From Polyangiaceae bacterium (GTDB lineage Bacteria; Myxococcota_A; Polyangia; Polyangiales; Polyangiaceae), in assembly GCA_023150915.1 (NCBI GenBank), contig JAKLKA010000027.1, positions 1-64,000 of the forward strand: 64,000 nt of DNA, read 5' to 3'. Position 1 is the first letter of the stretch; each line of letters opens with the position of its first letter. Below the pieces are notes generated by a model, which searched no databases, was not told the DNA's origin, and saw nothing but the letters and a program-made list of their open reading frames with translations. Below are positions 38,807-56,573 of the stretch, piece after piece. The translations under genes and the position numbers were made by a program.

Positions 38807-39185
38807 CTGCCGAGCGGAACACTGCCGAATTCTCTCTCGAGTCGTAGCCCATGCTAGTGAAGCCGCTCGCCCTCCCAGCCTCGGACATCACGCGCATCGC
38901 CCGACTGCCACGCGCATCGCCCGACTGCATGGAGCGCAATCGGTGCGCGTGTTCGGATCCCGTGTCGAAGCCGTGTACGCCGAAGAGAACGTGTGGCTCA
39001 GCCAGAGGATGATGGGCCAGCTCTACGACGTCTCGCGTACGAACCATCAGCTACTCCGGCGTGGGCTCTCCCGCCCATGGCGCCGATCGGCGTGCTGAAG
39101 GCCGCCGAGGGGGCTCGAACGTAGCCGAATCCCTGCCCCAGTGCCGGGACCTGACCGCGCCTTGGTCCTCGGGTATCTTGTGGGG
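38807..39185. other. Island-edge stretch with 20-bp tandem duplication
   Basis: About 380 bp between the pRiA4b-like gene and the Uma2 gene. It contains a perfect tandem duplication (unit CACGCGCATCGCCCGACTGC, 38889-38908 and 38909-38928) and a RhuM-like fragment described separately. No intact gene is seen. Confidence 0.5.
38943..39098 (+). pseudogene. RhuM-family N-terminal fragment
   Basis: A 51-residue frame reads VEAVYAEENVWLSQRMMGQLY then DVSRTNH. This resembles the start of RhuM-family proteins, where [EN]-x-x-WL-[ST]-Q-x-x-[MI]-[AG]-x-L-[FY]-x-V-S-x is typical. The family continues into a helix-turn-helix and the DGK-x-Y region, but here the frame turns into Arg-rich sequence and stops. 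It is a second RhuM relic, 1.3 kb from the chimeric one. Confidence 0.45.
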
Positions 39186-41294: not shown

Positions 41295-41316
41295 CCAGGC
41301 CTTGTACCATCGTCCC

Positions 41317-42534
41317 ATGAAGGTCGTCTTCCTCGCGCCGAGCTACCCGCCCGAGATGCAGCAGTACACGCGGGGCCTGGCCGAGGTCGGGGCCGAGGTC
41401 TACGGCGTGGGCGACACCCCGCGGGCCTCGCTGCCCCCGAGCCTGAAGCCGCACCTTGCGGACTATCTGCAGGTGCCGCGCATCTTGGACGAGGACGACG
41501 TGGTGGCGCGCGTCACCGAGTGGCTGCGGGGTCGCGAGGTGGACCGCGTTCTTGCCAACTGGGAGGTCGTGGTGCTCACCGCCGCGCGGCTCCGCGAGCG
41601 CTTCGGCATTCCGGGCATGAGCGTCGACACCGTGCAGGGCTTCCGCGACAAGCAGCTGATGAAAGAGCGCGTGCGCCGCGCCGGGCTGCGCACCCCGCAC
41701 TCGGAGCGGGTGCGGACCGCCAGCGAGACGCGGGCGGCGGCGGCGCGCATCGGGTATCCGCTGATCGTCAAGCCCATCTCGGGTGCGGGCAGCGCCGACA
41801 CTTACAAGGTGCAAGACGAGAGCGAGCTGGAGAAGGCCCTCGCGGCCATGCGCCACGTCGAGGTGGCCAGCTGTGAAGAGTTCATCAGCGGTGAAGAGTT
41901 CACCTTCGACACGGTGTGCATCGGCGGAAAGCCCGCGTTCATGAACGTGGCACAGTACCTACCGCCGCCCCTCTTGGCGCGCAGCCAAGAGTGGGTCAGC
42001 CCGATCATCATCACCGTGCGCGACCTCTCGCAGCCGAAGCTTGCGGGCGGCGTGGCGCTGGGCAAGCAGGTGCTGGGCGCGCTGGGCATGGGCGACGGCT
42101 TCACCCACATGGAGTGGTTCCGAAAGCCCGATGGCGAGGTGGTGTTCGGCGAGATCGGCTGCCGCCCCGGGGGCGCGCACCTGGTGGACCAGATGAACTA
42201 CACCTGCGACATCGACCTGTTCCGTGAGTGGGCGCGCGCCGTGTGCTGGGGCAGGTTCGAGGCGCCCACGGTGCGCAAGTACAACGCCGCAATCATCTTC
42301 AAGCGGGCCAAGGGGCAGGGGCGGATCACGCGAATCGACGGGCTTCGGGCGTTCATGCGGGCCTACGGCGATCACGTGGTGGAAGAGCGCCTCTTGCGCC
42401 CCGGCACGCCCCGCCGAAACTGGAAGCACACCCTGATCTCGGACGGGCACATCTTGCTGCGGCACCCCGACTGGCAGAAGACCCACGAGATGGCCCAGGC
42501 GGCCGCGACCGAGATCACGCTCTGGGCCGAGTGA
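41317..42534 (+). CDS. ATP-grasp ligase (THMEWF paralogue B)
   Basis: This 405-residue protein parallels the divergent neighbour. It starts MKVVFLAPSYPPEM with an N-terminal nucleotide-like domain, then DKQLMKERVRRAGL, PLIVKPISGAGSADTYKV, CEEFISGEEFTFDT, and GFTHMEWFRKPDGEVVFGE then CRPGGAHLVDQMNY. About half of the key positions match paralogue A. Its ATG lies 22 bp from that gene's ATG, so transcription signals must overlap coding DNA. Likely an amide- or ester-forming ligase of an uncharacterised pathway. Confidence 0.88.
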   Translation: MKVVFLAPSYPPEMQQYTRGLAEVGAEVYGVGDTPRASLPPSLKPHLADYLQVPRILDEDDVVARVTEWLRGREVDRVLANWEVVVLTAARLRERFGIPGMSVDTVQGFRDKQLMKERVRRAGLRTPHSERVRTASETRAAAARIGYPLIVKPISGAGSADTYKVQDESELEKALAAMRHVEVASCEEFISGEEFTFDTVCIGGKPAFMNVAQYLPPPLLARSQEWVSPIIITVRDLSQPKLAGGVALGKQVLGALGMGDGFTHMEWFRKPDGEVVFGEIGCRPGGAHLVDQMNYTCDIDLFREWARAVCWGRFEAPTVRKYNAAIIFKRAKGQGRITRIDGLRAFMRAYGDHVVEERLLRPGTPRRNWKHTLISDGHILLRHPDWQKTHEMAQAAATEITLWAE

Positions 42535-43296
42535 TCAGGCGCGCGGTGCGGGGCCGGGCCGCTCTTCCAGCCAGCGGCGGTAGGCCTTGGGGGGAAAGAA
42601 CGCCAGGCTGAGGGCCACGGCCGAAACGGTGGCCAGCAGCGACACCGTGCTCAGCGCCCAGACGTGTGCCCTGAGACCCGTGCCGTAGACCAGGCGATGC
42701 GCGACGCTGACTGCGAAGCCCAGCGCGGGGCAACCGATGGCGACGCCCCAGAGCAACACCCGGTTGACCACCAGCGGCTCGGCCAGGCCGATGCGCTGGC
42801 GCAGGCGCAACTTGGAATGGAGCTGGAAGCACTCGATGGCCATCCAGGTGGGCGCCGCGCCACGGGCGGCGAGCCCGAAGGGCACCCAGGGCCCCGAGAT
42901 GGGGATCATGTCGGAGTAACGAAGCAGCTCGCCCGAGACGACCTCGCCGGCGAGCGCCACGGCAATCAGCGCCGTCAGCGAGCCTGCCAGGCCGCCGGCC
43001 CAGGCCTCGCGCGGGCGGAACACTCGCCACGAGAAGGCGACCAGCGCCACATGGCCGATGCACTCGATGGAGAGACCGATGAGCGTGAACGACGCGCGCA
43101 GCTCCGGCGTGCCTTCGACCAGGATCTTGCCGGCGGTGCCCACGGCGTAGGCGATGAAACCCACGCACAGCGTGGCCACGGCCAAGAGCAGCTCGGGCAG
43201 CTTACGCGTTCGCCACCACAGGGCCAGCACCCGCGAGCCGACCACCAGCGAGGCGACCATGGAGAGCAGCAGCCCGGCGACGCTGATCGCGATCAT
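42535..43296 (-). CDS. Seven-TM-like membrane protein
   Basis: This 253-residue protein starts at ATG 43296 (overlap ATGA with the preceding gene). Hydrophobic segments at about 3-24, 33-54, 65-88, 95-120, 130-145, 170-190 and 205-228 give about seven helices, with a charged C-terminus (PPKAYRRWLEERPG). No transporter or enzyme motif is seen. Its stop is next to the stop of the convergent ligase B gene. It may sense, transport or anchor. Confidence 0.7.
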   Translation of the reverse strand: MIAISVAGLLLSMVASLVVGSRVLALWWRTRKLPELLLAVATLCVGFIAYAVGTAGKILVEGTPELRASFTLIGLSIECIGHVALVAFSWRVFRPREAWAGGLAGSLTALIAVALAGEVVSGELLRYSDMIPISGPWVPFGLAARGAAPTWMAIECFQLHSKLRLRQRIGLAEPLVVNRVLLWGVAIGCPALGFAVSVAHRLVYGTGLRAHVWALSTVSLLATVSAVALSLAFFPPKAYRRWLEERPGPAPRA

Positions 43297-43628
43297 GACC
43301 GGCCCCTGCGCGTGCCGTCGGACTCGAGCCGCGCGAACAGATCGTAGGCCGTGTCTTCGTGAGGCTCTGCGCGGTTCGCGCCGATCTGCGCGAGCTCGCC
43401 CATCAGCGCTTGGCACAGCTCGGCGGCGCTCTCGACCTTGCGCTTGGACAGCGCAGCCCCGAGCAAGCGCTCGATCACCACCAACATCTGACGTGGCGTG
43501 ACGCTGCTCGGATCCAGTCCGACGTCGCGCAGCACCAGGCGCACGGTGCCGCGGGCCTCGAGCTTGGACATGTGGGTGCGCGCCTCGAGCTCGGCACACA
43601 CCCATTCGAACGTGGAAGAACCCGTCAC
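43293..43628 (-). CDS. Small conserved-looking protein of unknown function
   Basis: The 111-residue protein (MTGSSTFEWVCAELEART...) is predicted mostly helical, with WVCAELEARTHMSKLEARGTVR at the N-terminus and an acidic C-terminal tail. No Cys clusters or TM. It overlaps the seven-TM gene by ATGA, so the two are co-expressed and may interact. Short proteins opening this way occur in other myxobacteria, from memory, often near membrane proteins. Confidence 0.65.
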   Translation of the reverse strand: MTGSSTFEWVCAELEARTHMSKLEARGTVRLVLRDVGLDPSSVTPRQMLVVIERLLGAALSKRKVESAAELCQALMGELAQIGANRAEPHEDTAYDLFARLESDGTRRGRS

Positions 43629-43656
43629 TGCCTGGATCCGCGCAGCGTAGCTCGAC

Positions 43657-45327
43657 TCAGCCCCGGGGCGCGACGGGGGAGACGGCCTGGTCCGCTGAAA
43701 TTCGCAGCCCGGCGACGCCGCGCCCGGCCGAGAGCTCGAGCAGCAGCACCGCGGCCGAGTGCCGCGAGACCAAGCTCATGGCGGTGACGCTGCCGGCCAG
43801 CACCCGGCGACCGTTCGACACACCATCGTCGAACACCAGCAGGTCGGGGGCGCCTTGCAGCGCGGCGGGCTGGGCCAGGCGTGCCCGGATGCCGCGCGTG
43901 GCGGAACGCCACACCACCAGCAGCTTGCCGTCGAGACCGGCGGCGACCACGTCGCCGGCACGGGTACCGGTGGGGCGAACCGCGTCGGGAGCGGAGCCGA
44001 GCAGGGCGTCCAGATCCACCTCGAAGGTCTCGCAACCGGCCTTCGAGCACCGCGCATGCTGCACCACGAACCCCGTGACGTCGGTGGCGGTGCGCTTGCG
44101 GGCCGTGGTCACCACGCGTGTGAGCGTGACGTCGGCGCTGCCGCACGAGAGCATGCGCGGGCCACCCCTGGCGTCGGCGCGCAGCTTCGCGCGCTTCATC
44201 TCCGACGCGGCGCCGTCGGTGAAGAACAGCACGCGCGCTTCCGCCCCCCGCGAGAGCACCACGGCCAGCCCGTCTTGGGTGCGGCACGCCTCGATGGTGT
44301 CGGGCACGACCTCGACCACCCCGTGATCGACCGGCTTGCCGAGCCCCAGGGGCTCGCGGGTGAGGCTGGCCGACAAGAGATGATCCCAGTCGTCGTCGTG
44401 CCCGCGCGCGACCCACAGCATGCGATCGGACAGCAGCGCCAGCCGCTTGAACGACAGATCGAGCTCCACCGGCGCGCCATGCTGGGTGCCGGCCCAGGCC
44501 GAGAGGCGCCAACCTCCGGTGGGCTGGTCCGACGGCTCGAGCGTCACGAAGCGGTCTTCGCCAAAGGTGTGGGCGTACACCGCGCGATCGGGGTTCTTGG
44601 CGTCGAACAGCGTGCCGGTATCGGCGCGGAAGAAGCGCTGCACGCGGTTGTCGGCGTGCAGGTGATCGCTGACCCAGATCGACCCGCCGGGATCCCCGGG
44701 TGGCCAGAGCACCAGACTCTGCGCCCCGACGGGCGCGTGCTTGGCAAGGGACGTGCACCGCGCGCCGTCGAGCGCTTCGGAGAACGAGCAGAGGTCGCTC
44801 TGGCCGACGATCAGGTGGAGCGCCGCGCCGGGCACCGGGTCGCTGGTGGTGCCGGCCAGGGTGCCCTTGTCGACCAAACGCGGCATGCGGTCGTCTGCAG
44901 CGCTGGCGGGCGCCGGCGCCGCCGGGGCGTCCGGCGCCGGCTCGACCCCCGGGGTCAAACCGGGGATGGCCAGCGACTCGGGCTCGCGCTCGAAGCGCTC
45001 GAGGGTGAAGCCCGTGCCCCACCGTGCGCGCACGTCGGCCGCGTCGGCCTTCTGCCCCGCGCGGTCGAGGGCGTCGGCCAGCCCCGTGGCGAGCTTGTCG
45101 CACCTGAGCGGCCAGTCTGCCGGCGGCCCCCCGAGCGCGATGCGATGCAGTCGCTCTTCGGCGGTCTCGCCCGCCGAAAGCGGTGCGCCCAGCAGACAGT
45201 GCGCCAGAGACGAGGCCGCGACCTGAGCCGCCCGCGCCGCGCGCTTCTGCAAGAACAACCAGGTGCCCACGCCCAGGGCGACGACCAGCGCCGCCAAGAC
45301 CCCCACGCCGATCAGACGCCGCGACAT
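43657..45327 (-). CDS. Membrane-anchored periplasmic protein of unknown function
   Basis: This 556-residue protein has one N-terminal TM (LIGVGVLAALVVALGVGTW, about 5-24) with a short cytoplasmic tail, then a helical segment of about 100 residues with paired Cys (HCLL, RCDK), a Pro/Ala linker, and a beta-rich C-terminal domain (about 170-540) that reads like a propeller (repeated strands, LWPPGDPGGSIWVSDHL, LLVVWRSATRG). No catalytic motif is recognised. It follows the lipoprotein gene at 45353 with a 25-bp gap. Confidence 0.65.
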   Translation of the reverse strand: MSRRLIGVGVLAALVVALGVGTWLFLQKRAARAAQVAASSLAHCLLGAPLSAGETAEERLHRIALGGPPADWPLRCDKLATGLADALDRAGQKADAADVRARWGTGFTLERFEREPESLAIPGLTPGVEPAPDAPAAPAPASAADDRMPRLVDKGTLAGTTSDPVPGAALHLIVGQSDLCSFSEALDGARCTSLAKHAPVGAQSLVLWPPGDPGGSIWVSDHLHADNRVQRFFRADTGTLFDAKNPDRAVYAHTFGEDRFVTLEPSDQPTGGWRLSAWAGTQHGAPVELDLSFKRLALLSDRMLWVARGHDDDWDHLLSASLTREPLGLGKPVDHGVVEVVPDTIEACRTQDGLAVVLSRGAEARVLFFTDGAASEMKRAKLRADARGGPRMLSCGSADVTLTRVVTTARKRTATDVTGFVVQHARCSKAGCETFEVDLDALLGSAPDAVRPTGTRAGDVVAAGLDGKLLVVWRSATRGIRARLAQPAALQGAPDLLVFDDGVSNGRRVLAGSVTAMSLVSRHSAAVLLLELSAGRGVAGLRISADQAVSPVAPRG

Positions 45328-45352
45328 GGTGGCAGCATACCGCGCGGTGGGC

Positions 45353-46477
45353 TCACGGTGGAGCCGCGCACTCTTTCCACTCGTCTTCCGGGATCAGCAG
45401 GCGGGCCTTGTCGTCGAGCAACAGCCAGCGCACCAGCGGCAGCGCGATGCGCTGATAGCGCGGCTCGGTGCGCCGGCCACGGGCCGGCGGCTCGCCGCCG
45501 TCGGTGGCGGGTGCACCCTCTTCGACCAGAAGAAACGACGCGCCCTTCTTCACCGTGCCAACCAGCGCGCGCTCGCTGCCCACCTCGATCAGCAAGCTGA
45601 GGTCACGCGCACAGGTGCGACCGCGGTGGGACGACGAGTAGCGTCGCCCGAGGCGCCCCAGGCCCATCCCATGGCCGATGCCCAAGGGCGGCACGTGCAG
45701 GTCGACGCTTGGAACCCAGCCGAACACGAAGTACCCGTCGCCGTCGTAGAGGATCTTCGAGTCGGCGCCATGCACCTCGACGATCTCGACCCGGCCGCCG
45801 GCCTTGAGTCGCGCCACCGGCGCGCCGCCCCGCTCGAGAGCCAGGCCGACGCCGTCGCGAGCCACGCGCTTCTCCGGCAGGTTGGTGCGCTGGGTGATCA
45901 GGTCGCGCGCCGTGAACTGGCTGGTGTTCAGCCCCAGCGCGTCGCAGCTCACGTCGGCATCCACCCGCGGCGGTTCGCTCAGCACCGCCGTGGCGTCCAC
46001 ACCCAGCCTGAGCCGGCCAGCTGCCCCGCCCAGCCACTGGAACGAGACGTTCGGCTTGGTCACCAGATAGCCACCGAGCGTGATGCGGGTCCGCGGGAAC
46101 ACCCGGGCGTCGCCCGGGTCGATGCGGGCGCGCACGATCACCATGGCGTCTTCGAGCACCGCCGTGGGCGCCCGCGGTTGGCCCGCCGGCATCACCAGCG
46201 TGGTGGGCGCGGACACCGCCTGGCCGAACGACGCCCCCCCCTCGGTGAGGCGCAGCGCGCCGACCGACCACGCCTTTTCGGCGATGCGACACGCGGCGTT
46301 CGCCGGCTCGCGCACCTCGGGCACCACCGGCGCCGCGACGGCGGGGCTGGGGTCGGGGTCGGCGCTGGCGTTGGGCCCAGGGATCTCGATCTTGGTGGGC
46401 GCCGGCGGGGGCGGCGGCCCCGCCGCAGGGCGCGAGCACGACGCGAGCACCAGCGACACCCACCCCCGACGCAACAT
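45353..46477 (-). CDS. Lipoprotein of unknown function
   Basis: The protein has 374 residues with an N-terminal signal and lipobox (SLVLASCSR), a Pro-rich linker, then a beta-rich periplasmic region. KAGGRVEIVEVHGADSKILY and GYFVFGWVPSVDL look like an SH3-like (SH3b) module, the latter a pattern common in cell-wall-binding domains. The last 60 residues are Arg-rich and basic. It lies directly after the AstE-like gene (5-bp gap), so the product may be functionally linked to it. Confidence 0.65.
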   Translation of the reverse strand: MLRRGWVSLVLASCSRPAAGPPPPPAPTKIEIPGPNASADPDPSPAVAAPVVPEVREPANAACRIAEKAWSVGALRLTEGGASFGQAVSAPTTLVMPAGQPRAPTAVLEDAMVIVRARIDPGDARVFPRTRITLGGYLVTKPNVSFQWLGGAAGRLRLGVDATAVLSEPPRVDADVSCDALGLNTSQFTARDLITQRTNLPEKRVARDGVGLALERGGAPVARLKAGGRVEIVEVHGADSKILYDGDGYFVFGWVPSVDLHVPPLGIGHGMGLGRLGRRYSSSHRGRTCARDLSLLIEVGSERALVGTVKKGASFLLVEEGAPATDGGEPPARGRRTEPRYQRIALPLVRWLLLDDKARLLIPEDEWKECAAPP

Positions 46478-46482
46478 GGCCT

Positions 46483-47403
46483 TCAGTCCAGCGCGCGGCC
46501 CACGAAGAACCCGTCGGCGCCTTGCGCCTGGTACAGCGGCAAGAGCACCAGGCAGTCGTTCGAGGCGCGGATCTCACCGCTGCGGTCGCGTGCGATGAGC
46601 GTGCCTGCCGGCGTGGGGTGAATGGTCGAGAAGCCGGGCGCCATCTCGAAGTCGTGATCCGGCGCGATGGCGTGACGCGACAAGACCTCGATCAGCTTGG
46701 GCAGGCTGCCCCGCGCGTGCTCGAGCACCAGGCTCTGCGCGTCGTAGTCGGGCAAGGCGTGCTTCTGGAACACGCCGCTCGCCACCAGCGCCACCGTCAC
46801 CGCCGCCACCAGGTGGTCGCGCGCCTTGGCGCTGTCGTGCTGCCCGCCCTCGACGGCGAAGGTGACGCAGCCGCGCCGGCCCAGATAGCTGGTGAGCACG
46901 CCGGGCAGCTGGGTCTCGAGCCCCACCATGCAGGGCAGCGCGAAGTGCGCCGCGAACGCGCGGTGCTCGGGTGTGGGGCCGACCACTCCGAAGGGTGTGC
47001 CCTCGGACGACGTGGTGTGCAGATCGAGGACGAACACCGGCCCCCGCGCCCGGGCCATGATGGTCTCGATGGCGTCAGCCAGCTCCACGGTCTCGTGCAG
47101 CTCGGCCTCGGCCGGATCGTCGGTGGCGGCGGCCACGGCCTGTCGGGCTTCGGCCACGCGCTCTTCCGTCCACTGGCGGTTCAGATCGCGATCCAGATAG
47201 CGCCGGCGTGCCACCAACGCTCGCAGGTTCCCCGCCAGCGCGACCACTTCACCCACGTGCGGCGTCTTGTCGTGACGCAGCCGCGACAGCACGATGCGCG
47301 CGGCTTCCATCCCCGCCGGCTCGTTGCCGTGCAGACCGCCCACGATGATCAACGTGGGCCCCGGCGTGCTCGAAGCCAGGCGGTTGATCTGGCGCGGGGT
47401 CAA
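46483..47403 (-). CDS. Succinylglutamate desuccinylase/aspartoacylase-like zinc hydrolase
   Basis: This protein of about 306 residues starts at TTG 47403, overlapping the GCS2 stop as TTGA. Zinc ligands are IVGGLHGNEPAG (His, Glu) and VFVLDLHTTSSEG (His). The substrate-binding LDRDLNRQW (Arg, Asn) matches AstE/ACY family members. ATFAVEGGQHD is the region of the catalytic Glu. The family removes acyl or amino-acid groups from N-acylated amino acids and peptides. Being coupled to a glutamate-cysteine-ligase homologue suggests it trims or recycles the product. Confidence 0.88.
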   Translation of the reverse strand: MTPRQINRLASSTPGPTLIIVGGLHGNEPAGMEAARIVLSRLRHDKTPHVGEVVALAGNLRALVARRRYLDRDLNRQWTEERVAEARQAVAAATDDPAEAELHETVELADAIETIMARARGPVFVLDLHTTSSEGTPFGVVGPTPEHRAFAAHFALPCMVGLETQLPGVLTSYLGRRGCVTFAVEGGQHDSAKARDHLVAAVTVALVASGVFQKHALPDYDAQSLVLEHARGSLPKLIEVLSRHAIAPDHDFEMAPGFSTIHPTPAGTLIARDRSGEIRASNDCLVLLPLYQAQGADGFFVGRALD

Positions 47404-49397
47404 AGGTCGTCCTCTTGGCTCGGGCCGAGCAGGCTGCCGGCGTCCACGAAGCTCTTCAGCTCGGGCTCGCGCACCGGGCCCAGGCCCAGCTTCTGCTCGA
47501 TCAGCTTGTGGGCAATGGGCAAGAAGTCTTCGGTCGAGACCACGCCCACCAGCCGCTCGTTCTGCACCACCGGCAGGCACCCGACGCGATAGCGCTGCAT
47601 CAGCTTCAGCGCCTCGAGCGTGTCGGTCTCGGGCGTCACGGTCTTCACGTCGCGCCGCATCACCTTCGACACCGGGGTGTCTTTGGTAGAGCCGCCGGCA
47701 GCCAGCAGGCGCAAGAGCGCGCGATAGCTCACCAGCCCGCGCAAGCGGTGGTCCTTGTCCTCGACCGGAATGTGCCGCAGGCGCTCCCAGTCCATCAAGA
47801 TGGTGACCATCTCGACCGGGTCGTCCTCGTGCACCGTGAACAGGTCGGTGGTCATGTACTGATCCACCTTCAAGTAGTTGTGGTGCGATGCCGCGGCCTC
47901 GTCCAAGCGAGCCCGCTCCCACTCGTGGACCGGCCGGCGGGTGAGCTGGCGCTTGACCGTGGCGGCCACCAGCGCGTTCGCCTTCTCGCCCGGTGTGCCC
48001 TTGTCTTTGAGCGCGTTCCACGACGAAAGCTGCCAGCGCGCGCCGGTGCGGGTGGTCTTCACGCGCTGATCGATCACCCCCAGGTAGCGCTTGATGTCCG
48101 CCTCTTTCACCTTCTGGCGGCGAAGGCCGGCCTCGGCCGCCGGCATCAGCTTGTCGAGGATCAGGTGCACCGCGGCGATGTCTTTCCCGCCCAGCCAGCT
48201 GAACGTGGCGCCGAGCCCCTCGCGGGCGGCGGTGTAGAAGTTCGCGCCGGCAATGTCGAACTCGATGCGCTTGTCGGCTTCGAGCCCCCGCGCGGCGAGC
48301 TCGGCCATCAGACCGAACCAGAATGCGCCGTTCGCCACCTCGTCCAGCACGCTGGGGCCCGCGGGCATGACGCGGTTCTCGATGCGCAGGTGGGCCTTTC
48401 CACCGGCCACCCCGAAGCAGGGGCGATTCCAGCGATAGATGGTGCCGTTGTGCAGGCGCAGCGCCTTCAGCTGGGGGATCTCGCCACGGTCGAGCACCGC
48501 CATGGGGTCTTCGTCCAGATCGGTGCCGACCAACGTGCGAAAGCGCGCGATGTCTTCCTGGAAGATCTCGGTGATCGACTGCTTCACCCAGCGCGTTCCA
48601 AAGCTGACGCGCGCCTCGCTCTCGCGCAGGTGCGAGGTGTGGCTGCGGGTGTCGACCGCCTGGCGGAAGAGCGCGATGCGCGTCTCGGCCCACAGCCGCC
48701 GCCCGAAGAAGAGCGGCGAGTTGGCGCTGATGGCCATCATCGGGCCGGCCAAGAGCTGCGCCACGTTGTAGAGCCGGGCAAACTCGTCCGCGTCGACTTG
48801 GAAGTGGACCTGAAAGCTCGAGTTGCACGCCTCGACCATCACCGAGTCGTGCTCGATGATCAGCTCGTCGAGCCCCTTGATCGAGATCTCGAACTTGCCG
48901 TCGCGCAGCTGGTGCATCACCTTGCTGAGCGCCATGTAGCGCGGGCTGGGCACCATGTTGTGCAGGCCCAGGTCGCTCTTGCGCATGGTGGGCAAGATGC
49001 CCATCAAGACCGGCTGCATGCCGAGCTCACCGGCGGCCGCGCGCGCCTTCTCCATCAGCTCGTCCAGCTGCTTTTCCATGCGCGACAGGCCGTCGCCCGA
49101 GAGCGGCTGCGGGTCGCAGTTGGCCTCGAGCTGGAACATGCCGAGCTCGGTGGTGAAGTGGTCGTCGTTCAGGCGCTTCAGGATCTCGACGGCGCCGCCG
49201 GCCGGCGCCCACGCCTGATCGATCAAGAACATCTCTTGCTCGGCGCCGATGCGGCGCACGCCCTTCTCGAACAGCCCCTCTTTGAGCATGCGCTCGAGCG
49301 CGCGCAGATCGTTCAAGATCGCATGGGTGAACTCCCGGCGGCGCTGCGCGTCGCTCTCGGTGTCCACCGTCTTGTGTGCTCGGGTGTTGGTCGTCAT
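47400..49397 (-). CDS. GCS2-type glutamate-cysteine ligase homologue fused to CBS pair
   Basis: The protein has 665 residues from ATG 49397 (49439 is possible). Residues about 25-480 are a GCS2-family carboxylate-amine ligase: IGAEQEMFLID, LGMFQLEANCDPQ, MVEACNSSFQVHFQV and RIENRVMPAGPS carry the Glu/Asp metal and ATP residues. Residues about 510-650 form two CBS domains (VDQYMTTDLFTVHEDD and VSKVMRRDVKTVTPETD). CBS usually senses adenine nucleotides, so ligation may be energy-regulated. It may not be the cell's glutathione enzyme. Confidence 0.87.
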   Translation of the reverse strand: MTTNTRAHKTVDTESDAQRRREFTHAILNDLRALERMLKEGLFEKGVRRIGAEQEMFLIDQAWAPAGGAVEILKRLNDDHFTTELGMFQLEANCDPQPLSGDGLSRMEKQLDELMEKARAAAGELGMQPVLMGILPTMRKSDLGLHNMVPSPRYMALSKVMHQLRDGKFEISIKGLDELIIEHDSVMVEACNSSFQVHFQVDADEFARLYNVAQLLAGPMMAISANSPLFFGRRLWAETRIALFRQAVDTRSHTSHLRESEARVSFGTRWVKQSITEIFQEDIARFRTLVGTDLDEDPMAVLDRGEIPQLKALRLHNGTIYRWNRPCFGVAGGKAHLRIENRVMPAGPSVLDEVANGAFWFGLMAELAARGLEADKRIEFDIAGANFYTAAREGLGATFSWLGGKDIAAVHLILDKLMPAAEAGLRRQKVKEADIKRYLGVIDQRVKTTRTGARWQLSSWNALKDKGTPGEKANALVAATVKRQLTRRPVHEWERARLDEAAASHHNYLKVDQYMTTDLFTVHEDDPVEMVTILMDWERLRHIPVEDKDHRLRGLVSYRALLRLLAAGGSTKDTPVSKVMRRDVKTVTPETDTLEALKLMQRYRVGCLPVVQNERLVGVVSTEDFLPIAHKLIEQKLGLGPVREPELKSFVDAGSLLGPSQEDDL

Positions 49398-49419
49398 GCT
49401 CGGCCCCGCCTGGCTCCCG

Positions 49420-50157
49420 TCACTTCGTCCACTCTGCAAGATACTGTGGCAGCATCTTGCGCCAAGTCACCCAGTCGTGGTGCCAGTCTCGGCCCCACGG
49501 GTCCACCCGGTTGGGAATGCCCTTCCGCCCCAGCACGCCGGCCATGGCCCACGACTCGCCAATGTCTTCCGCCCGGCCCTCGCCAGTGGGCATCAAGATG
49601 AAGCGCGTCCGAAGCACGTCCAGGTGGCGCCCCGCCAGGCCGGGGACGAAGTGGATCGGCGACGAGACGTAGAACTCGTCGGTGAACTCGTCCAGCCGTG
49701 CGTCGTAGAACCTACGGATGTCGTAGGTCCCGCTCATGGCGATGGCCTTGGAAAACAGGTGCGGAAAGCGGCACACCATCGCCACCGAGTGCAGGGCCCC
49801 GATGGAAGAGCCCGCCGCCCAGACCTCGATCTCGGGGCTCTTGCAGTCGGTGCGGATGGCCGGAACCACCTCGGACTTCACGTAGTGGTGGAACTGGTTC
49901 TGCATCCACATCTGGTGGCGCGCCGAGCCGTGGCGCCCGAGCAGGGCCTGCCCCGCCACGCTGTCGCAGGAATAGACCTTGATCTTGCCAGCGTCGATCA
50001 GCGGGCGAAGCACGTCGATCATGTGAAAGCGCTCGATCTCTTCCGCGTCGCCGCCGGCGGTGGGGAAGAGCAGCACCGGCTGGCCGAAGGTGCCCCACCG
50101 GACCAGCGTGACCTCGCGCTGCACGCACGGCGAGCGCCAGCGTTCGACGGCCTTCAC
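49420..50157 (-). CDS. Alpha/beta-hydrolase (esterase family)
   Basis: The 245-residue protein starts at GTG 50157, overlapping the ligase stop as GTGA. The nucleophile elbow is AAGSSIGALHS near residue 105 (G-x-S-x-G in the form G-S-S-I-G). DWHHDWVTWRKMLPQYL near the C-terminus carries the catalytic His and fits esterase-D/S-formylglutathione-hydrolase-like families. It is translationally coupled to the ATP-grasp ligase, so it likely hydrolyses its ester- or amide-linked product or an activated precursor. Confidence 0.85.
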   Translation of the reverse strand: MKAVERWRSPCVQREVTLVRWGTFGQPVLLFPTAGGDAEEIERFHMIDVLRPLIDAGKIKVYSCDSVAGQALLGRHGSARHQMWMQNQFHHYVKSEVVPAIRTDCKSPEIEVWAAGSSIGALHSVAMVCRFPHLFSKAIAMSGTYDIRRFYDARLDEFTDEFYVSSPIHFVPGLAGRHLDVLRTRFILMPTGEGRAEDIGESWAMAGVLGRKGIPNRVDPWGRDWHHDWVTWRKMLPQYLAEWTK

Positions 50158-51404
50158 TTTGCCACCTGACTTTCGGCGCGCCACTTCTGCACGCGCTGCC
50201 AGAACAGCTCGGTGAACTGCTCCACTTCGTGAGCGGGGTAGAGCGCGGCGGTCTTCTTGCGGAAGGCCTCTTTCGCCACGGGCGTTCCGAAGAACTCCCA
50301 CGCCACCTGGTCCAGGTGCGGCAGGTGCTTCTCGCAGAACTCTTCGAAGCGCGCGGTCTCGAAGCGCTGTTCGGCGATCCGCGCGTAGGCCGCCAGCTTG
50401 TCCGGGTAAGGCATGTCGGCCTCGGCAGCGATGGCGTAGAACGGGGCCCAGTCCAGGTTCATGCGGAACGGCCGCCGGGTGACGGCGCAGAACACGCTCC
50501 AGCGGATCTTGGCCTTGACCAGCCAAGGGAAGTGATAGTGCAGCGACGTGACCTGCGAGTCGGGGCACGGGTTCGCGAAGTCGATGGGGTACCAGACGCC
50601 CTCTTTGCTCAGTGACTCGCACGAGTTGAAGTCCCACCCGAAGAAGGCGTTGATGGTCAGGGTGATGTCGCGCAGCGTCTTCTGATCTGCCGCGGACAGG
50701 AACTCTGCCTCGCGATCCATGGTGTAGCGATCGTGCAGGGGCACGCTGGGGTCGTACCGCACGATGTGGGTCTGGGGCCCAAGGCCGATGCAGCGCACGA
50801 AGCGGTCGAACGGCTCCACGGCCTTCTGCAGGTGCATCACCAGCTTGCCGCTCTCTTCATAACGGGCGCGCAGCGTGGCTTCGTCGGGAATGCGACTCAC
50901 CGACTTCCAACCGCCGCCGTCGTACGGCTTCATGAACATCGGGTAGCCCAGGGCCTGCCCCACCTTGCCCAGATCGAACAACTTGGCATAGCTCTGGAGC
51001 GTGGGCTTCAGATCCGGCAGCGGCTCGTAGCTCTTGGGGGGCACCATCCAAGTCTCGGGGATGGGCATGCCCAGGTGCATCATGGCGCAGTAGGTGGTCT
51101 GCTTCTCCATCGACTGCACGGCCCAGGGGTTGTTGAGCACGTACAGGCCGTCCATCACGATCGCCTTCTTGATCCACTCACGGCTGGTGTGAAACCAGTG
51201 CGTGAGCCGATCGAGCACCACGTCGTAGCGACAAGGCTGGCGCAGATCGTAGGGCTCGATGGTGACGCGATCGACTGCCACGCCGACCTGATCGCCTTGC
51301 CACTCGATGGCAAGGTCGAGCTGTTTCACGATCTCTTCGTAACAGATGGGCCAACAGATGTCGGCGCCGAGCGAGAGGCCGATGTTGCGGGTGACTTGGG
51401 CCAT
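50154..51404 (-). CDS. ATP-grasp family ligase (paralogue D, distinct lineage)
   Basis: This 416-residue protein starts MAQVTRNIGLSLGADICWP. The ATP-grasp core has EKQTTYCAMMHLGMP (Lys) and YPMFMKPYDGGGWKSV (Lys and Gly loop). VRCIGLGPQTHIVRYDP and WYPIDFANPCPDSQVTS follow, carrying the metal-binding Asn. It lacks the THMEWF motif of the other three. It is coupled to the esterase gene downstream. Upstream a 360-bp gap holds a decayed ATPase fragment. Confidence 0.85.
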   Translation of the reverse strand: MAQVTRNIGLSLGADICWPICYEEIVKQLDLAIEWQGDQVGVAVDRVTIEPYDLRQPCRYDVVLDRLTHWFHTSREWIKKAIVMDGLYVLNNPWAVQSMEKQTTYCAMMHLGMPIPETWMVPPKSYEPLPDLKPTLQSYAKLFDLGKVGQALGYPMFMKPYDGGGWKSVSRIPDEATLRARYEESGKLVMHLQKAVEPFDRFVRCIGLGPQTHIVRYDPSVPLHDRYTMDREAEFLSAADQKTLRDITLTINAFFGWDFNSCESLSKEGVWYPIDFANPCPDSQVTSLHYHFPWLVKAKIRWSVFCAVTRRPFRMNLDWAPFYAIAAEADMPYPDKLAAYARIAEQRFETARFEEFCEKHLPHLDQVAWEFFGTPVAKEAFRKKTAALYPAHEVEQFTELFWQRVQKWRAESQVAK

Positions 51405-51766
51405 GGGCGGGGGCTTCCCTATCCTTCATCTTCCCCCGGCGAAAGCCACAATTCCAAGGCCGCCCCGGCGCGCGGGTTTCGCGGGGTGGCGCGGCAGGGC
51501 CCGGCCGAGCCGACCGGTCCGGCGCCGCGGCACCGCCGGAGATGCGACCCATCGTGAGCGACGCGCACCGGGACCGCGACTACCCGGCGCTGGCGCGAGT
51601 GTCCGCGCTCAGGCAGCGGCGGATGTGAGGGCGCGGGCCCATGCCGGAGAACCCAGGGGGTCTTCCCGACCCCGCGGGGTCCGAGGAGGAAGAGCGACCC
51701 GTCCGGGGGCACCCGCCGCCGTGCGAGCACCGTCGGCGAATTGCCGGAAAACCGCCGACGGACCAA
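51405..51766 (-). pseudogene. Decayed fragment of DUF4143-type ATPase
   Basis: On the minus strand near 51650-51766 a frame reads VPPDGSLFLLGPRGVGKTPWV, almost the same as the Walker A region of the intact ATPase at 4233-5393 (ARSFLLLGPRGTGKTTWL). The frame then degrades, and pieces of the following region (CLSADTR) appear in another frame. There is no start or second half, so only a relic remains. It interrupts the otherwise continuous ligase cluster. Confidence 0.55.
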
Positions 51767-52903
51767 TCACTCGTAGACGAACAAGAAGGGCCCGGGGAAC
51801 AGCCACGAGAGCCCCTCGCGCAGCCGATCGCGCCAGTTCTCCCAGTTGTGGCCGTCGCGGGCCTCGACATAGCGCACGTCCATGCCGGTGGCCTCGAGCA
51901 CCGGGGCAAGGGAGCGGTTCTCGTAGATCAGCGACTCGTACATGCCGCAGCTGATGAAGATGCGCTCGGACATGGCGATGGGCCGGGCGCGCAGCTGGTT
52001 GACGAACGCGACCACCGGATCGAAGAGCGGCCCGCGGTGGTTGCGGTCGCCGATGTCGGTGAACGCGAACGAGCCCGACTGCAGCAGCAGCCGACCGAAG
52101 AAGCCCGGGCGCCGGAGGGCGGTGGAGAGCGACGCCACCGCGCCGAAGCTGGCGCCCATCAGGCAGCGGGACTGCGGGCGGCCGTCGATGGGCAGGGCGC
52201 GTTCGAGCTGGGGCACCACGTCGTCCACGATGAAGGCTGCGTGCCGCTCGTCGTTCGCGTACTCGACCAGCCGATCGGGCGAGCTGGTGAGCGCCACGAT
52301 CATGTCGGGGATCTCGAGCCGGTGCATCAAGTTGTCGAGGACCGTGCCGAGGGCGGCGTAGCGCAGATAGTCGTGGCCGTCGTGCACCACCAAGAGCGGG
52401 TAGCGACGCGTGCGACGAAAGCGCGCCGGCAGGTAGATCTCGAGGCGCCGGCGGCCGAAGGTCTTGGTGTCGAGCCAGAGCTCGTCGATCTTGCCCGGCC
52501 GCGACTCGGGGTCGGGGTGGATCCACGACGGGACCTCGTAGCCCTCGCCGTGGGCCACCGAGTTGGCGCCGAACGGGTCCCGCGCCTTGTGCGGGTTGAG
52601 GGGATCTTGCATCCACTCGCCGTGGCCCCCGCGCACCACCTCGAGCTTGTATTCGACCCGCGATCGGGGCGGCAGCTCGAGGGTCAGGTGCCACACGTCG
52701 GTGCCTTCGATGCGGGCCAGCTGCTGGGACGACGGCAGACCGAACACCCAGTGCTTGAGGTGGATGGCCTCGGCCTCGCCGCGGAACACGAAGGTGATGG
52801 CCGGGCCGTCGACGATGGGGAACGCCCGCCCGGCGAAGAACGCGTCCACGGCCGCCTTGGTGCGGGGCCCCGCCGCCAGCTCGTCGATGGCACGTGCGCT
52901 CAT
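51767..52903 (-). CDS. Enterochelin-esterase-like alpha/beta-hydrolase
   Basis: This 378-residue protein has an N-terminal beta-sandwich (about 20-150; FVFRGEAEAIHLKHWVFG) as found before the hydrolase in Fes-type enterochelin esterases. The C-terminal alpha/beta-hydrolase (about 165-375) has LLVVHDGHDYL, nucleophile CLMGASFGAVAS (G-x-S-x-G) and DGHNWENWRDRL (catalytic His). Known members cleave siderophore ester or amide links. No siderophore gene is present, so the substrate may be the product of the neighbouring ligases. It overlaps the S51-like gene by ATGA. Confidence 0.85.
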   Translation of the reverse strand: MSARAIDELAAGPRTKAAVDAFFAGRAFPIVDGPAITFVFRGEAEAIHLKHWVFGLPSSQQLARIEGTDVWHLTLELPPRSRVEYKLEVVRGGHGEWMQDPLNPHKARDPFGANSVAHGEGYEVPSWIHPDPESRPGKIDELWLDTKTFGRRRLEIYLPARFRRTRRYPLLVVHDGHDYLRYAALGTVLDNLMHRLEIPDMIVALTSSPDRLVEYANDERHAAFIVDDVVPQLERALPIDGRPQSRCLMGASFGAVASLSTALRRPGFFGRLLLQSGSFAFTDIGDRNHRGPLFDPVVAFVNQLRARPIAMSERIFISCGMYESLIYENRSLAPVLEATGMDVRYVEARDGHNWENWRDRLREGLSWLFPGPFLFVYE

Positions 52904-53826
52904 CCGGTCCACCGCTCTTCGATGAAGCCGTCGGCGTCGAGGCGGTGGCACAGGGCGTGGCGCACCTGCCCGCCTTCGACGTGGACGCGCGCGCCGACGT
53001 CCATGGCCACGCAGGTGGCTGGGGCGATGCGCTGAACGAAGCGCGAGATGCCAGCCCGGTCGCCCGAGTCGATGCGATGACGGAAGTCGGGCAGCACCAC
53101 CAGGTCGCGCACCAACCCGAAGCCGCGGTCCAGCACCTCGGCGATGCCGGTGCCGTGGGGCGGGAAGTCGTGGAACAAGAAGATGCGCTCGGTGAGCACC
53201 ATGGCGCCCGCCGCCGCCGCGAACCAGCGCTGGTTCTTGCACAGGCCCACCAGGCCGAACAGCTTCATGCGGTTCAAGAGCGAGACCACGTGGCCGCCCA
53301 TGACCACGACCGCCTCGACGTCGTCCAAGATCGCCGCCAGCTCTTTGCGGTGCCTGGCGATGGCGGGGCGCTCGAAGGGGCGCCAGCGATCGGCAAGCTC
53401 GTCGTGCTTGATCTGACAGCGCTCGAGGTGGTCGCGATCGAGCTGCTTCAGCGCCTCGACCGACTCGATCTGCTCTTCGGCCAAGAGCTCGGGGTCGACG
53501 TGCCGCACGGAGATGGAGCGCGCAGCCTCGAACTCGTGGTCGAGACGGATGCGATAGAAATCGTTCACCAGCCGGAGGCGCCCCTGCTTGGCCTTGTGCG
53601 CGGCGGCGAAGGGCTTGTCTTCGGCAAACACCTGTTCCGACCGGGCGTGCAGGGTCAGGTTCACCGCCTTCATGCCCAGGCTCTCGACCAGGGCTTGGTC
53701 GTCGCTCTCGCGCTCTTGCCAGCCCGCGGTGACCAGCGCCACCGGGCCCTTCACGTGGGCCAGGGCCAGCGCCGCGCCGACGTCGGGCGTGGGCTGCTGC
53801 GGGCCGAGAAGCACGACGGTAGACAC
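52900..53826 (-). CDS. Peptidase S51/class-I amidotransferase-like protein, nucleophile replaced
   Basis: The protein has about 308 residues from GTG 53826. It has a class-I glutamine-amidotransferase-like fold with VVVMGGHVVSLLNRMKLFGL, as in peptidase E/cyanophycinase. In active S51 members a G-x-SAGA segment follows. Here the corresponding segment is WFAAAAGAMVL, with Ala where the catalytic Ser should be. FLFHDFPPHGTG is retained. It may thus be a binding or regulatory paralogue or have a different mechanism. It lies 2 bp after ligase C and overlaps the esterase gene by 4 bp. Confidence 0.72.
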   Translation of the reverse strand: MSTVVLLGPQQPTPDVGAALALAHVKGPVALVTAGWQERESDDQALVESLGMKAVNLTLHARSEQVFAEDKPFAAAHKAKQGRLRLVNDFYRIRLDHEFEAARSISVRHVDPELLAEEQIESVEALKQLDRDHLERCQIKHDELADRWRPFERPAIARHRKELAAILDDVEAVVVMGGHVVSLLNRMKLFGLVGLCKNQRWFAAAAGAMVLTERIFLFHDFPPHGTGIAEVLDRGFGLVRDLVVLPDFRHRIDSGDRAGISRFVQRIAPATCVAMDVGARVHVEGGQVRHALCHRLDADGFIEERWTG

Positions 53827-53828
53827 GC

Positions 53829-55055
53829 TCAGCTCGCCCACACCTTCACGGTCTGACCGACGATGTCCAGCATACGGCGGAGCTCGTCGTAGTTCTCGTG
53901 CTTCATGCGGATCCAGGCGTTGGCCATGTACCCCGCTTCGACCGGCTGGGTGGGGGTGCCCGGCGGCGGCGTGTGGGCGTCGATGATGTGCGGCCCGAAC
54001 GACTTGCCGATGGCGTCGAGCCCGTCGTACCCGCTGATGCGACCGTCTTGGCTGGGGCGCAGCGCGATGATGCCCGCGGCCAGCCGCCGCGACGCGCGCT
54101 GGCTGGGCCGACCGTGGCACACACAGGCGGCCCACTCGCGGTACAGATCCATGTCGTTGCCGACGTTGTACAGATCCCAGGCGCGCACGCCCGGGGGGCG
54201 GCAGCCGATCTCGGAGAACTTGAGCCCCTTCGGACCGAAGAACCACTCCATGTGGGTGGCCGAGGTGCCGATACCCAGCAGCTCGATCACCTTGCGCCCC
54301 ATCCGCTTGACGTCGTCGTAACCGGGCGCGCTGTCGATGCGATTGGTGGCCACGAACTGCGGCGAGATCCAGCGCTTGCGCATGGCCTCGAGCACGTTGG
54401 GGTAGTAGTGCGTGGCGAACTCGTGCACCACGCGACCGTCGATGCAGAGCGTGTCGAAGAAGCCCTCGTGACCCTCGATGAACTCTTCGACGGCCACCGA
54501 GCGGCCCGGCTGGCCCAGCCCGAAGGCCCCCAGCGCCTTGCCGAGATCGGCCAGGCTGTCGGCCCGGATGGCGCCCGATGCACCGGCGGCGTCTCGGGGC
54601 TTCAAGATCACCGGGAAGCCGACCCGCTCGACGAACTCGCGCACCTCGGCGGCGCTTTGCGCCCCGGTCGACGCGGCACAGGGCACGCCGCCCTGGCGCA
54701 GCACTTCTTTCATCGCCGGCTTGTCGCGACACAGGAAGGCGGTCCGCACCGAGGTGCCCGGGATGCCGGCGGCCTCACGCACTTTCGCGATCGGCATGAT
54801 GTGCGCCTCGACCGTGGCCTCGAGCCGGTCGACGTGGGCGCGGCGCTGGATGAAGCGCAGGGCGTCGAGCACGGCGCCCTCGTCGCACACCGAGCTGACC
54901 TCTTCATAATGCAAGAGCCAGCGCTTGAGATCGTCGTCCAGTGAGCCCTTGCTGCCCTCGCCAATGGCGGTGACGGTGGCCCCCACTTCGGCGAGCGCCC
55001 GCACGAAGAGCTTCTGGTTGCCGGGGAAACGGGGCTCGATGAAGACGACGTGCAT
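53829..55055 (-). CDS. ATP-grasp ligase (THMEWF paralogue C)
   Basis: The 408-residue protein starts at ATG 55055 (55070 is possible). It opens MHVVFIEPRFPGNQK and shows DKPAMKEVLRQGGVP, PVILKPRDAAGASGA, VEEFIEGHEGFFDTL and ATHMEWFFGPKGLKFSE then GCRPPGVRAWDLYN. It shares the THMEWF motif and overall layout with paralogues A and B at 40-42.5 kb, which lie on the other side of the cluster. Active residues are intact. It is probably the first ligase of the minus-strand operon. Confidence 0.87.
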   Translation of the reverse strand: MHVVFIEPRFPGNQKLFVRALAEVGATVTAIGEGSKGSLDDDLKRWLLHYEEVSSVCDEGAVLDALRFIQRRAHVDRLEATVEAHIMPIAKVREAAGIPGTSVRTAFLCRDKPAMKEVLRQGGVPCAASTGAQSAAEVREFVERVGFPVILKPRDAAGASGAIRADSLADLGKALGAFGLGQPGRSVAVEEFIEGHEGFFDTLCIDGRVVHEFATHYYPNVLEAMRKRWISPQFVATNRIDSAPGYDDVKRMGRKVIELLGIGTSATHMEWFFGPKGLKFSEIGCRPPGVRAWDLYNVGNDMDLYREWAACVCHGRPSQRASRRLAAGIIALRPSQDGRISGYDGLDAIGKSFGPHIIDAHTPPPGTPTQPVEAGYMANAWIRMKHENYDELRRMLDIVGQTVKVWAS

Positions 55056-55100
55056 GGCGGTTTCTTTCACGAAGGCCCGGGCGCGGGCAAGCGCCCTGGC

Positions 55101-56573
55101 TCACATTGCGACGAGCCGCTGGTAGAGCTCGTCGTATTTCTTGGCTTGCACGGCCCACGAGAAGTTCTGGGCCATGCCGCTTTGCATGATCTTTCGCCAG
55201 GTGGCCGAGTCGCGATAGTGCGCGAGCGCGGTCTCGATGCCCCAGGTGAGGCCCTGAGCGTCGTGGTTCTCGAAGGGGAACCCGGTGCCGCGACCCGTAC
55301 GGGGGTCGAACAGCTGCACCGTGTCGCGCAGGCCGCCGGTCTTGTGCACGATGGGCACGGTGCCGTAACGCAGGCTGTACAGCTGGTTCAGCCCGCACGG
55401 CTCGTAGCGCGAGGGCATCACGAACATGTCGGCGCCCGCCTCGATCAGGTGAGCCAGCTCGTTGTTGTAGCCGCGGTAGAAGCACACCTGCCGGGGGAAC
55501 GTGCGCTGGAGCGCGGCATACATCTCTTCCAGGTGGTGCTCGCCGCTGCCCAGCGCCACGAACTGAAAGGCATGGCGGCGCAAGAGGCGGCCCAGCACGC
55601 CGGCGAGCAGGTCGAGGCCCTTCTGCCCGACCATGCGCGTCACCGAGCCGAGCACCGGCGTGCCGCGGTGGTAGGGCAGGCCCAGCTTCTCGAGCAACAC
55701 CGCCTTGTTCCGCTCTTTGCCGGCCAGGTTGGTGTGGCCGTACGCGTGGGGAATGAGCGGATCGTTCTCGGGGTTCCACTCGTCGTAGTCCACGCCGTTC
55801 AAGATGCCGACGATGGTCGAGCTGCGCATGCGCAAGAAGGGGTCGAGCCCCGCGCCGTGCTCGGGCGTCTGGATCTCTCGCGAGTAGCTGGGGCTGACCG
55901 TGGTGATGCCGTCGGCGTAGAGCACACCGTGCAAGAGGAAGCTGAGGTGCCCTTGCTTCAAATAGTCTTGGTGAAACAGGTGGGCCGCGCGCCCGAGCCC
56001 GGTCTCGGGCAGCACGTGCGCGGGGAAGGTGCCTTGGTACTGCAGGTTGTGGATGGTGAGCAGCGTGCGCGCGCGTGACAGCACCGGATCGCGGGCGTAG
56101 CTGGTCTTCAGCGCCAGCGGCACGAGCGCGGTCTGCCAGTCGTGGCAGTGGACCACGTCCGGCGCGAAGCGCATCTGGCGGCAGGCCTCGAGCGCGGCGT
56201 ACGACAGCACCAGAAAGCGCAGGTGCTCGTCGCCGTCGGCGGTGTAGATGCTGGCGCGCGAGAACAGCTCGGGGCTGTAGACGAAGAACACCTCGAGGTC
56301 GGTGCCGGGTTGAAGCGCGCTGGCAATGCCCACGGTGAAGCGCCGCGGCCCGAGCTGGATGCGTACCGGGCCGAGGCCGGGCACCGGCCGCAGGCGGTAC
56401 TTGCGCCGGTCGATCTGGGAATAGGCCGGCAAGAACACGCGCACGTCGTGCCCCAGCCGGTGCATCTGGCGCGGCAACGCGCCCAGCACGTCTGCGAGCC
56501 CCCCCGTCTTGGCGAATGGCGCCACTTCTGGCGCGATGTACAGGAGCCGCACGGGAGCCGGAGAATGACACAT
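55101..56573 (-). CDS. glgA: Glycogen/starch synthase (GT5)
   Basis: This 490-residue protein starts at ATG 56573. It has the GT5 signatures: LLYIAPEVAPFAKTGGLADV (nucleotide-sugar KTGGL), PDVVHCHDWQTALVPL, GILNGVDYDEWNP, RMVGQKGLDLL and MPSRYEPCGLNQLYSLRYGTVPIV (E-x(7)-E region). It adds glucose from ADP- or UDP-glucose to glycogen. Its stop is 46 bp upstream of ligase C. It is divergent from the kinase gene, with 83 bp between starts. No other glycogen genes are in the window. Confidence 0.93.
   Translation of the reverse strand: MCHSPAPVRLLYIAPEVAPFAKTGGLADVLGALPRQMHRLGHDVRVFLPAYSQIDRRKYRLRPVPGLGPVRIQLGPRRFTVGIASALQPGTDLEVFFVYSPELFSRASIYTADGDEHLRFLVLSYAALEACRQMRFAPDVVHCHDWQTALVPLALKTSYARDPVLSRARTLLTIHNLQYQGTFPAHVLPETGLGRAAHLFHQDYLKQGHLSFLLHGVLYADGITTVSPSYSREIQTPEHGAGLDPFLRMRSSTIVGILNGVDYDEWNPENDPLIPHAYGHTNLAGKERNKAVLLEKLGLPYHRGTPVLGSVTRMVGQKGLDLLAGVLGRLLRRHAFQFVALGSGEHHLEEMYAALQRTFPRQVCFYRGYNNELAHLIEAGADMFVMPSRYEPCGLNQLYSLRYGTVPIVHKTGGLRDTVQLFDPRTGRGTGFPFENHDAQGLTWGIETALAHYRDSATWRKIMQSGMAQNFSWAVQAKKYDELYQRLVAM

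Follow-up and report, generated by a model that had tools for sequence, protein, structure and literature searches.

A conserved set of ATP-grasp ligases and esterases with glycogen synthase as a frequent partner in a Polyangiaceae genome and its relatives

What might a bacterium make with a row of genes for amide ligases, esterases and further hydrolase-like proteins? The question is raised by positions 42535-55055 of contig JAKLKA010000027.1 from a Polyangiaceae bacterium (assembly GCA_023150915.1), within the 64,000-nucleotide stretch that was analysed as a whole (the window), where an earlier note made from the sequence alone had read eleven minus-strand genes as a unit for the synthesis and export of an unknown peptide-like or acylated amino-acid product. 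The source genome comprises 8.0 Mb in 295 contigs, and its relatives are Myxococcota. Four ATP-grasp ligases (A, B, C and D), two esterases (a Fes-like protein and esterase 2, est2) and a protein of the peptidase S51 fold are inherited together, with the glycogen synthase GlgA as a frequent partner. There is good support for this system and for its association with glycogen, and from them we infer the reaction product of the ligases and esterases. Our preferred reading, to which we assign a probability of about 0.38, is that these amide ligases act in the cytosol in connection with alpha-glucan metabolism, where the system perhaps puts amino-acyl or peptidyl groups on glycogen and takes them off.

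Genes that travel together

A scan of genome contigs with a profile of ligase D found at least 503 relatives, and the best 80 loci were taken for comparison. The relatives in these loci are labelled as Myxococcota, Acidobacteriota, Planctomycetota, Gemmatimonadota, Pseudomonadota, Actinomycetota, Candidatus Eiseniibacteriota and Lujinxingiaceae, the labels coming from the database records of what are mostly metagenome bins, so that the taxonomy of a single contig may be wrong; mis-binning leaves gene order within a contig untouched. Loci labelled as belonging to seven or more phyla share gene order and strand, and the commonest arrangement around D, which is carried by at least 503 contigs, is S51-Fes-D-est2. 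In segments no longer than 20 kb that surround relatives of a GCS2-type ligase with CBS domains (GCS2-CBS), the longer series C-S51-Fes-D-est2-GCS2-AstE, which ends with an AstE-like zinc acylase, is collinear in several genera. The genes for S51 and Fes share a strand in all 73 loci (and lie within 300 bp of each other in 72). The same holds for Fes and D in all 78 loci, for D and est2 in 67 of 69, and for GCS2 following est2 in 39 of 39; where a locus contains both A and B, the two are usually adjacent. That the core gene order returns in dozens of genomes goes far beyond what chance would give.

The counts of presence in the 80 loci, which are lowered by the early ends of many contigs, are 68 for S51, 73 for Fes, 62 for est2, 50 for C, 36 for GlgA, 34 for GCS2, 27 for A, 26 for B and 15 for AstE. 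The deep core consists of ligase C, the S51-like protein, the Fes-like esterase, ligase D and est2; GCS2-CBS and the AstE-like protein form a mainly myxobacterial extension, with GCS2 in three and AstE in one of 32 non-myxobacterial loci. Around the core the gene order is shuffled between phyla, and the companions are retained. Plasmid-borne spread was considered and rejected, as D has no match on PLSDB plasmids at an E-value of 1e-20.

An independent test is offered by the phyletic profile, because adjacency plays no part in it. Among 379 genomes of the phylum, D occurs in 103, B in 101 and C in 97. D and B are both present in 95 genomes and both absent from 270 (p = 1e-71), and D and C are both present in 93 and both absent from 272 (p = 3e-71), B and C thus being found in 95 and 93 of the 103 genomes with D, respectively; these p-values overstate independence because the genomes are related. 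More weight attaches to a second phylum, in which the distribution is sparse and again matches: among 199 Acidobacteriota genomes, D is present in seven, B in seven and both in six. In four genomes in which D is alone on its contig, Fes is located elsewhere in the genome. The phyla are only partly separated in the tree of D, which may reflect transfer or mis-binned contigs.

The association with glycogen synthase

The GlgA of the window is a canonical enzyme (TIGR02095, 529.3 bits against a cut-off of 328.5) and the only strong full-length GT5 match in the source genome. GlgC is encoded beside a TIGR02149-type (Corynebacterium-type) synthase on contig C41 (L165:7070-9663, -) and GlgB on a third contig; the genome therefore has two kinds of glycogen synthase. 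In the window, 30 bp separate glgA from C, the next gene downstream on that strand, and among the 80 loci the two genes share a strand in 28, in 24 of which they are at most 300 bp apart. GlgA is near D in 36 of the 80 loci. Among the 28 full-length loci it lies within the 19-kb locus in 11, against about 0.15 expected from two copies per 7 Mb (p = 2e-18). Across genomes, GlgA is found in 100 of 103 with D and in 146 of 276 without it (p = 5e-19).

The association persists in rearranged clusters. The order is GlgC-A-S51-Fes-D-est2-B-GlgA-C in a gammaproteobacterial locus (L127) and C-GlgA-A-B-S51-Fes-D-est2-GlgC-like in a planctomycetotal locus (L132), where an alpha-glucan phosphorylase and a debranching enzyme follow. 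In a locus from Phycisphaerales (L154) it is C-S51-Fes-D-est2-GlgA-GlgC-like-A-B, and in one from Acidobacteriota (L142) it is D-GlgA-GlgC-like-A-B-MalQ. Directly upstream of GlgA, an N-formylglutamate-amidohydrolase-like gene (PF05013) is found in up to 15 myxobacterial loci (for example L079:2995-4080, +).

The locus in the window and its proteins

The minus-strand series runs from 56.55 to 42.5 kb, with GlgA first and a multi-transmembrane (multi-TM) protein last. Family assignments were made with Pfam and NCBIfam profiles and, where the sequence match was weak, with predicted structures. The features are as follows.

55101-56552 (-): GlgA, canonical ADP-glucose-type glycogen synthase (GT5; TIGR02095), first gene of the putative operon
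53829-55070 (-): ATP-grasp ligase C, L-amino-acid-ligase-like (PF02222, 29.8 bits against 27)
52900-53841 (-): protein of the S51/peptidase-E/cyanophycinase fold (AlphaFold2 model and Foldseek)
51767-52903 (-): Fes-like CE1 esterase with an N-terminal Enterochelin_N (E-set) domain (PF00756, PF11806)
51405-51766: 362-bp gap between D and Fes, a genus-level break in the ancestral order S51-Fes-D-est2
50154-51404 (-): ATP-grasp ligase D, divergent and RimK-like by fold, the best marker of the system
49420-50157 (-): est2, CE1-type alpha/beta hydrolase without an E-set domain (PF00756)
47400-49397 (-): GCS2 carboxylate-amine ligase fused to two CBS domains (PF04107, PF00571)
46483-47403 (-): AstE/aspartoacylase-like zinc acylase (PF24827)
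45353-46477 (-): putative lipoprotein, genus-restricted, outside the conserved system
43657-45327 (-): genus-restricted, membrane-anchored protein with a single hydrophobic segment at its N-terminus
43293-43571 (-): small protein, genus-restricted
42535-43296 (-): multi-TM protein, genus-restricted, for which a simple hydropathy scan gives about six hydrophobic segments
41317-42534 (+, opposite strand): ATP-grasp ligase B (PF13535), member of the conserved system
40080-41318 (-): ATP-grasp ligase A (PF02222), member of the conserved system

All eleven minus-strand genes of the earlier note are present in the order it gave. Its families hold for ligase C, the Fes-like esterase, est2 (PF00756), GCS2 with two CBS domains and AstE/AspA by Pfam, and two of its calls are confirmed by fold: the S51-like protein, for which the Pfam match is weak (E = 0.008), and ligase D, for which there is no Pfam match. 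Its central idea, that the ligases and hydrolases form one conserved functional unit, is borne out by the recurrence of the neighbourhood in other genomes; the note had proposed their separation elsewhere as grounds for giving the idea up, and the comparison found them co-located. The boundaries that it drew leave out glgA and ligases A and B, and wrongly include the four genes at the low end. These four have no counterpart in any of the 80 loci outside the genus, and in the neighbourhoods of GCS2-CBS relatives their matches are confined to the same genus, that of the lipoprotein to loci L030 and L031. Two details need correction: the last protein, described as having seven transmembrane segments, shows the roughly six listed above, and the 4-bp overlaps said to mark most junctions are found by gene calls at four of ten (Fes/S51, est2/D, AstE/GCS2 and multi-TM/small protein). 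C and S51 overlap by 13 bp, and the other junctions are gaps of 5-85 bp together with the 362 bp between D and Fes. Scans for promoters and terminators gave no signal above chance.

The gap between Fes and D has a median of 30 bp in relatives, and in one genome of the same genus other genes, 6.6 kb in all, stand between the two. Translated in frame 0, the gap of the window reads SLFLLGPRGVGKT, a P-loop-like remnant similar to the beginning of an AAA_14/DUF4143 gene (4233-5393), and is perhaps a decayed insertion.

Ligases A, B and C carry an ATP-grasp domain above the Pfam cut-off of 27 bits (A, 36.8, PF02222; B, 36.0, PF13535; C, 29.8, PF02222), and none of them attains an NCBIfam equivalog cut-off. 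The LAL_C2 domain (PF18603) scores 22.2 bits against 29.4 in A and is unlisted for B and C. In the tree they form three separate clades (support 100/100 for A, 100/99 for B and 100/100 for C), each of which spans several phyla. The ATP-grasp domain is common to them and to the L-amino acid ligases including BacD (4wd3, 3vmm), and the best solved matches of the C profile belong to this group (4wd3 and BacD); here, in contrast, three paralogue families are kept together in a context with glgA and esterases.

Ligase D, modelled as an ATP-grasp protein with a mean predicted local distance difference test score (pLDDT) of 88.6, superimposes on RimK with a VIA-align Z of 19.7 (263 aligned residues, 2.8 Å) and is also near LysX/ArgX in fold. 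It retains the Lys and the presumed metal-site residues (K159, D275 and N278 in 89 of 89 sequences), although it lies far outside rimK_fam by sequence (TIGR00768, 22.8 bits against 143.4) and adds a helical C-terminal region of about 100 residues. The fold is matched by inositol kinases of the ITPK type as well (Z of about 17.6), and D may be a kinase as far as compatibility of the modelled fold alone goes. A-C would be of the L-amino-acid-ligase type by sequence, with ATP-dependent dipeptide formation as a prediction, and D of the RimK type by fold.

The S51-like protein (pLDDT 93) has a long helical insertion at about residues 64-173 and matches dipeptidase E (7c9b) in Foldseek with an E-value of 2e-7, cyanophycinase (3en0) being matched as well. 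Its Pfam score is under the cut-off (PF03575, 16.3 bits against 23.9). At the nucleophile position, 54 of 74 sequences have Ser and 12 have Cys, while Ala occurs in four including the protein of the window (Ala210), Thr in three and Gly in one; with Ala at this position, the protein of the window is probably inactive as a serine peptidase.

The Fes-like esterase (PF00756, 62.6 bits; PF11806, 30.1 against 27.1) keeps the triad S252, D350 and H352 in 79 of 79 sequences. Its catalytic domain, triad and N-terminal Enterochelin_N domain match enterochelin esterase Fes and the CE1 feruloyl esterases. The nearest solved structure is enterochelin esterase, followed by feruloyl esterases, some of which are titled as bearing an isoamylase N-domain or a CBM. 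It is nevertheless below the enterochelin esterase equivalog cut-off (PRK10439, 105.6 bits against 222), and siderophore genes were not noticed among its neighbours; siderophore hydrolysis was rejected on these two grounds. In est2 (PF00756, 31.4 bits against 22), S118, E197 and H227 are found in 72 of 72 sequences. Searches of PDB sequences with small alignments of est2 and S51 gave no match, and a larger est2 alignment gave weak esterase matches only.

GCS2-CBS (PF04107, 43.3 bits against 21; PF00571, 90.6 bits) retains E53, E55, E91 and N93 in 47 of 47 sequences. CBS proteins make up its 25 best NCBIfam matches, with no glutathione, ergothioneine or glutamate-cysteine-ligase equivalog among them, and the genome encodes a second, plant-type GshA-like GCS2 protein (TIGR01436, 391 bits, below the cut-off of 463; contig C206, L048:8731-10098, -). 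Ordinary glutathione synthesis, which the earlier note had named as fatal to its pathway idea, is ruled out for GCS2-CBS by these matches and by the separate GshA-like protein. A sister subclade of GCS2-CBS with 47-50% identity (L040-L046) is located apart from the ligase cluster. The AstE-like protein (PF24827, 73 bits against 25) keeps H25, E28, H129 and E185, which include the zinc ligands, in 25 of 25 sequences, and is below the equivalog cut-offs for AstE (33.5 against 305.7) and aspartoacylase (49.5 against 180). No membrane segment and no hydrophobic N-terminus is predicted in the conserved proteins, and the system apparently resides in the cytosol.

What the system may make

In the proposed route the ligases would spend ATP to make a short peptide or the amide of an amino acid, and the esterases, one of which has an E-set domain, would move an acyl group onto or off the hydroxyls of an alpha-glucan extended by GlgA. 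The S51-like and AstE-like proteins would trim or recycle the peptide, and in myxobacteria the CBS domains of the GCS2 ligase could let the energy state set the rate. Nitrogen and carbon storage would be joined by the end product, either an alpha-glucan with amino-acyl or peptidyl groups or a glucan primer bearing a peptide. The alpha-glucan link is favoured because GlgA, glgC, phosphorylase, debranching or malQ genes accompany the rearranged clusters and because Fes matches feruloyl esterases, some of them with an isoamylase N-domain or a CBM; also counted in its favour are the catalytic residues kept in Fes, est2, D, GCS2 and AstE, the conserved order and strand, the joint presence or absence of B, C and D, the frequency of GlgA near D and in genomes with D, the canonical type of GlgA, the three separate clades of A, B and C and the lack of membrane segments. 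The bolder form of the proposal, a new and widespread pathway in which an alpha-glucan (glycogen or a short primer) covalently carries amino acids or peptides, with the four ATP-grasp ligases and two esterases putting them on and taking them off, we consider doubtful.

Several points weigh against the glycogen modification. In the window, the S51-like protein has Ala210 where the SAG motif would have its nucleophilic Ser. In many genomes with D, GlgA is on another contig, so that the link could be one of shared physiology and not of a single pathway; GlgA is common in any case (53% of D-negative genomes), and none of the ligases was seen fused to it. The kinship of the genomes makes the p-values too strong. 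An E-set domain is also present in enterochelin esterase, which to our knowledge acts on no glucan.

The main rival, only a little less probable than the preferred reading, is a free soluble dipeptide, oligopeptide or amino-acid amide, acting as a compatible solute or in redox or signalling functions, in which case the proximity of glgA would mark a shared stationary-phase or storage programme and the esterases would release or activate an ester intermediate. The resemblance of A, B and C to L-amino acid ligases and BacD, a group with members that make free dipeptides, the cytosolic appearance of all of the conserved proteins and the frequent non-adjacency of GlgA are consistent with such a product, whereas a pure peptide pathway has no obvious place for two conserved esterases of the CE1 type, of which Fes has an E-set domain, and glgA and glgC repeatedly accompany the system in rearranged clusters.

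It is improbable that the system maintains a cyanophycin-like nitrogen store, polymerized or branched by the ligases and degraded by the S51-like protein in step with glycogen. As in cyanophycin metabolism (CphB, peptidase S51), a ligase stands with a protein of the cyanophycinase/peptidase E fold and there is a link to storage, here through the tie to glycogen genes, and D is nearest to RimK, which is named poly-alpha-L-glutamate synthetase in one PDB title. However, the nucleophile is other than Ser in 20 of the 74 S51 sequences, that of the window included; the S51-like protein further differs from cyanophycinase in its helical insertion and its Pfam score below the cut-off; a CphA-type synthetase with fused ATP-grasp and Mur-ligase parts was not seen in the cluster (no genome-wide search was made); and the esterases are left unexplained.

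Still less probable is that the ligases tag a protein, GlgA or another glycogen enzyme, with amino acids that the hydrolases remove. RimK tags ribosomal protein S6. The fold of D is nearest to RimK and LysX/ArgX, which act on protein substrates, and GlgA is a conserved partner, but four ligases and two serine esterases exceed the needs of a simple tag, and A-C resemble small-molecule ligases.

The earlier note had favoured synthesis and export of a product that is peptide-like or an acylated amino acid; the lipoprotein and the membrane proteins would then serve the export. In this genus the reading would suit the four genes, which trail AstE on its strand and are separated by short gaps. It is rejected as very improbable, because these genes are restricted to the genus and missing from all 80 loci outside it while the core is kept, and the core holds no membrane protein, its conserved members all appearing cytosolic.

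Amidoligase neighbourhoods in which ATP-grasp and GCS2 ligases stand with hydrolases were reportedly treated by Iyer et al. in Mol BioSyst in 2009. In the searchable open full-text literature, no description of the present system or of its glycogen association was found; the enzyme families are known, and the assembled system and its association with glycogen appear to be undescribed in the literature searched. The four ligases are kept together across distant phyla, with D 63-78% identical between them, so that their function must repay the ATP. The tie to glycogen synthase suggests a chemistry on, or a control of, the main carbon store that is absent from textbook glycogen metabolism, and isolates with intact clusters, such as Enhygromyxa salina SWB007 (L131) with its series C-S51-Fes-D-est2, together with the sharp pattern of presence and absence, make the question testable.

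Beyond ligase A, the window encodes a DarT/DarG toxin-antitoxin pair, consisting of the single-stranded DNA thymidine ADP-ribosyltransferase DarT (35606-36223, +; PADLOC 234 bits, Pfam 190 bits) and its macro-domain partner DarG (36234-37301, +; 446 bits), and a putative endonuclease of the Uma2 type (39180-40064, +) adjoins ligase A.

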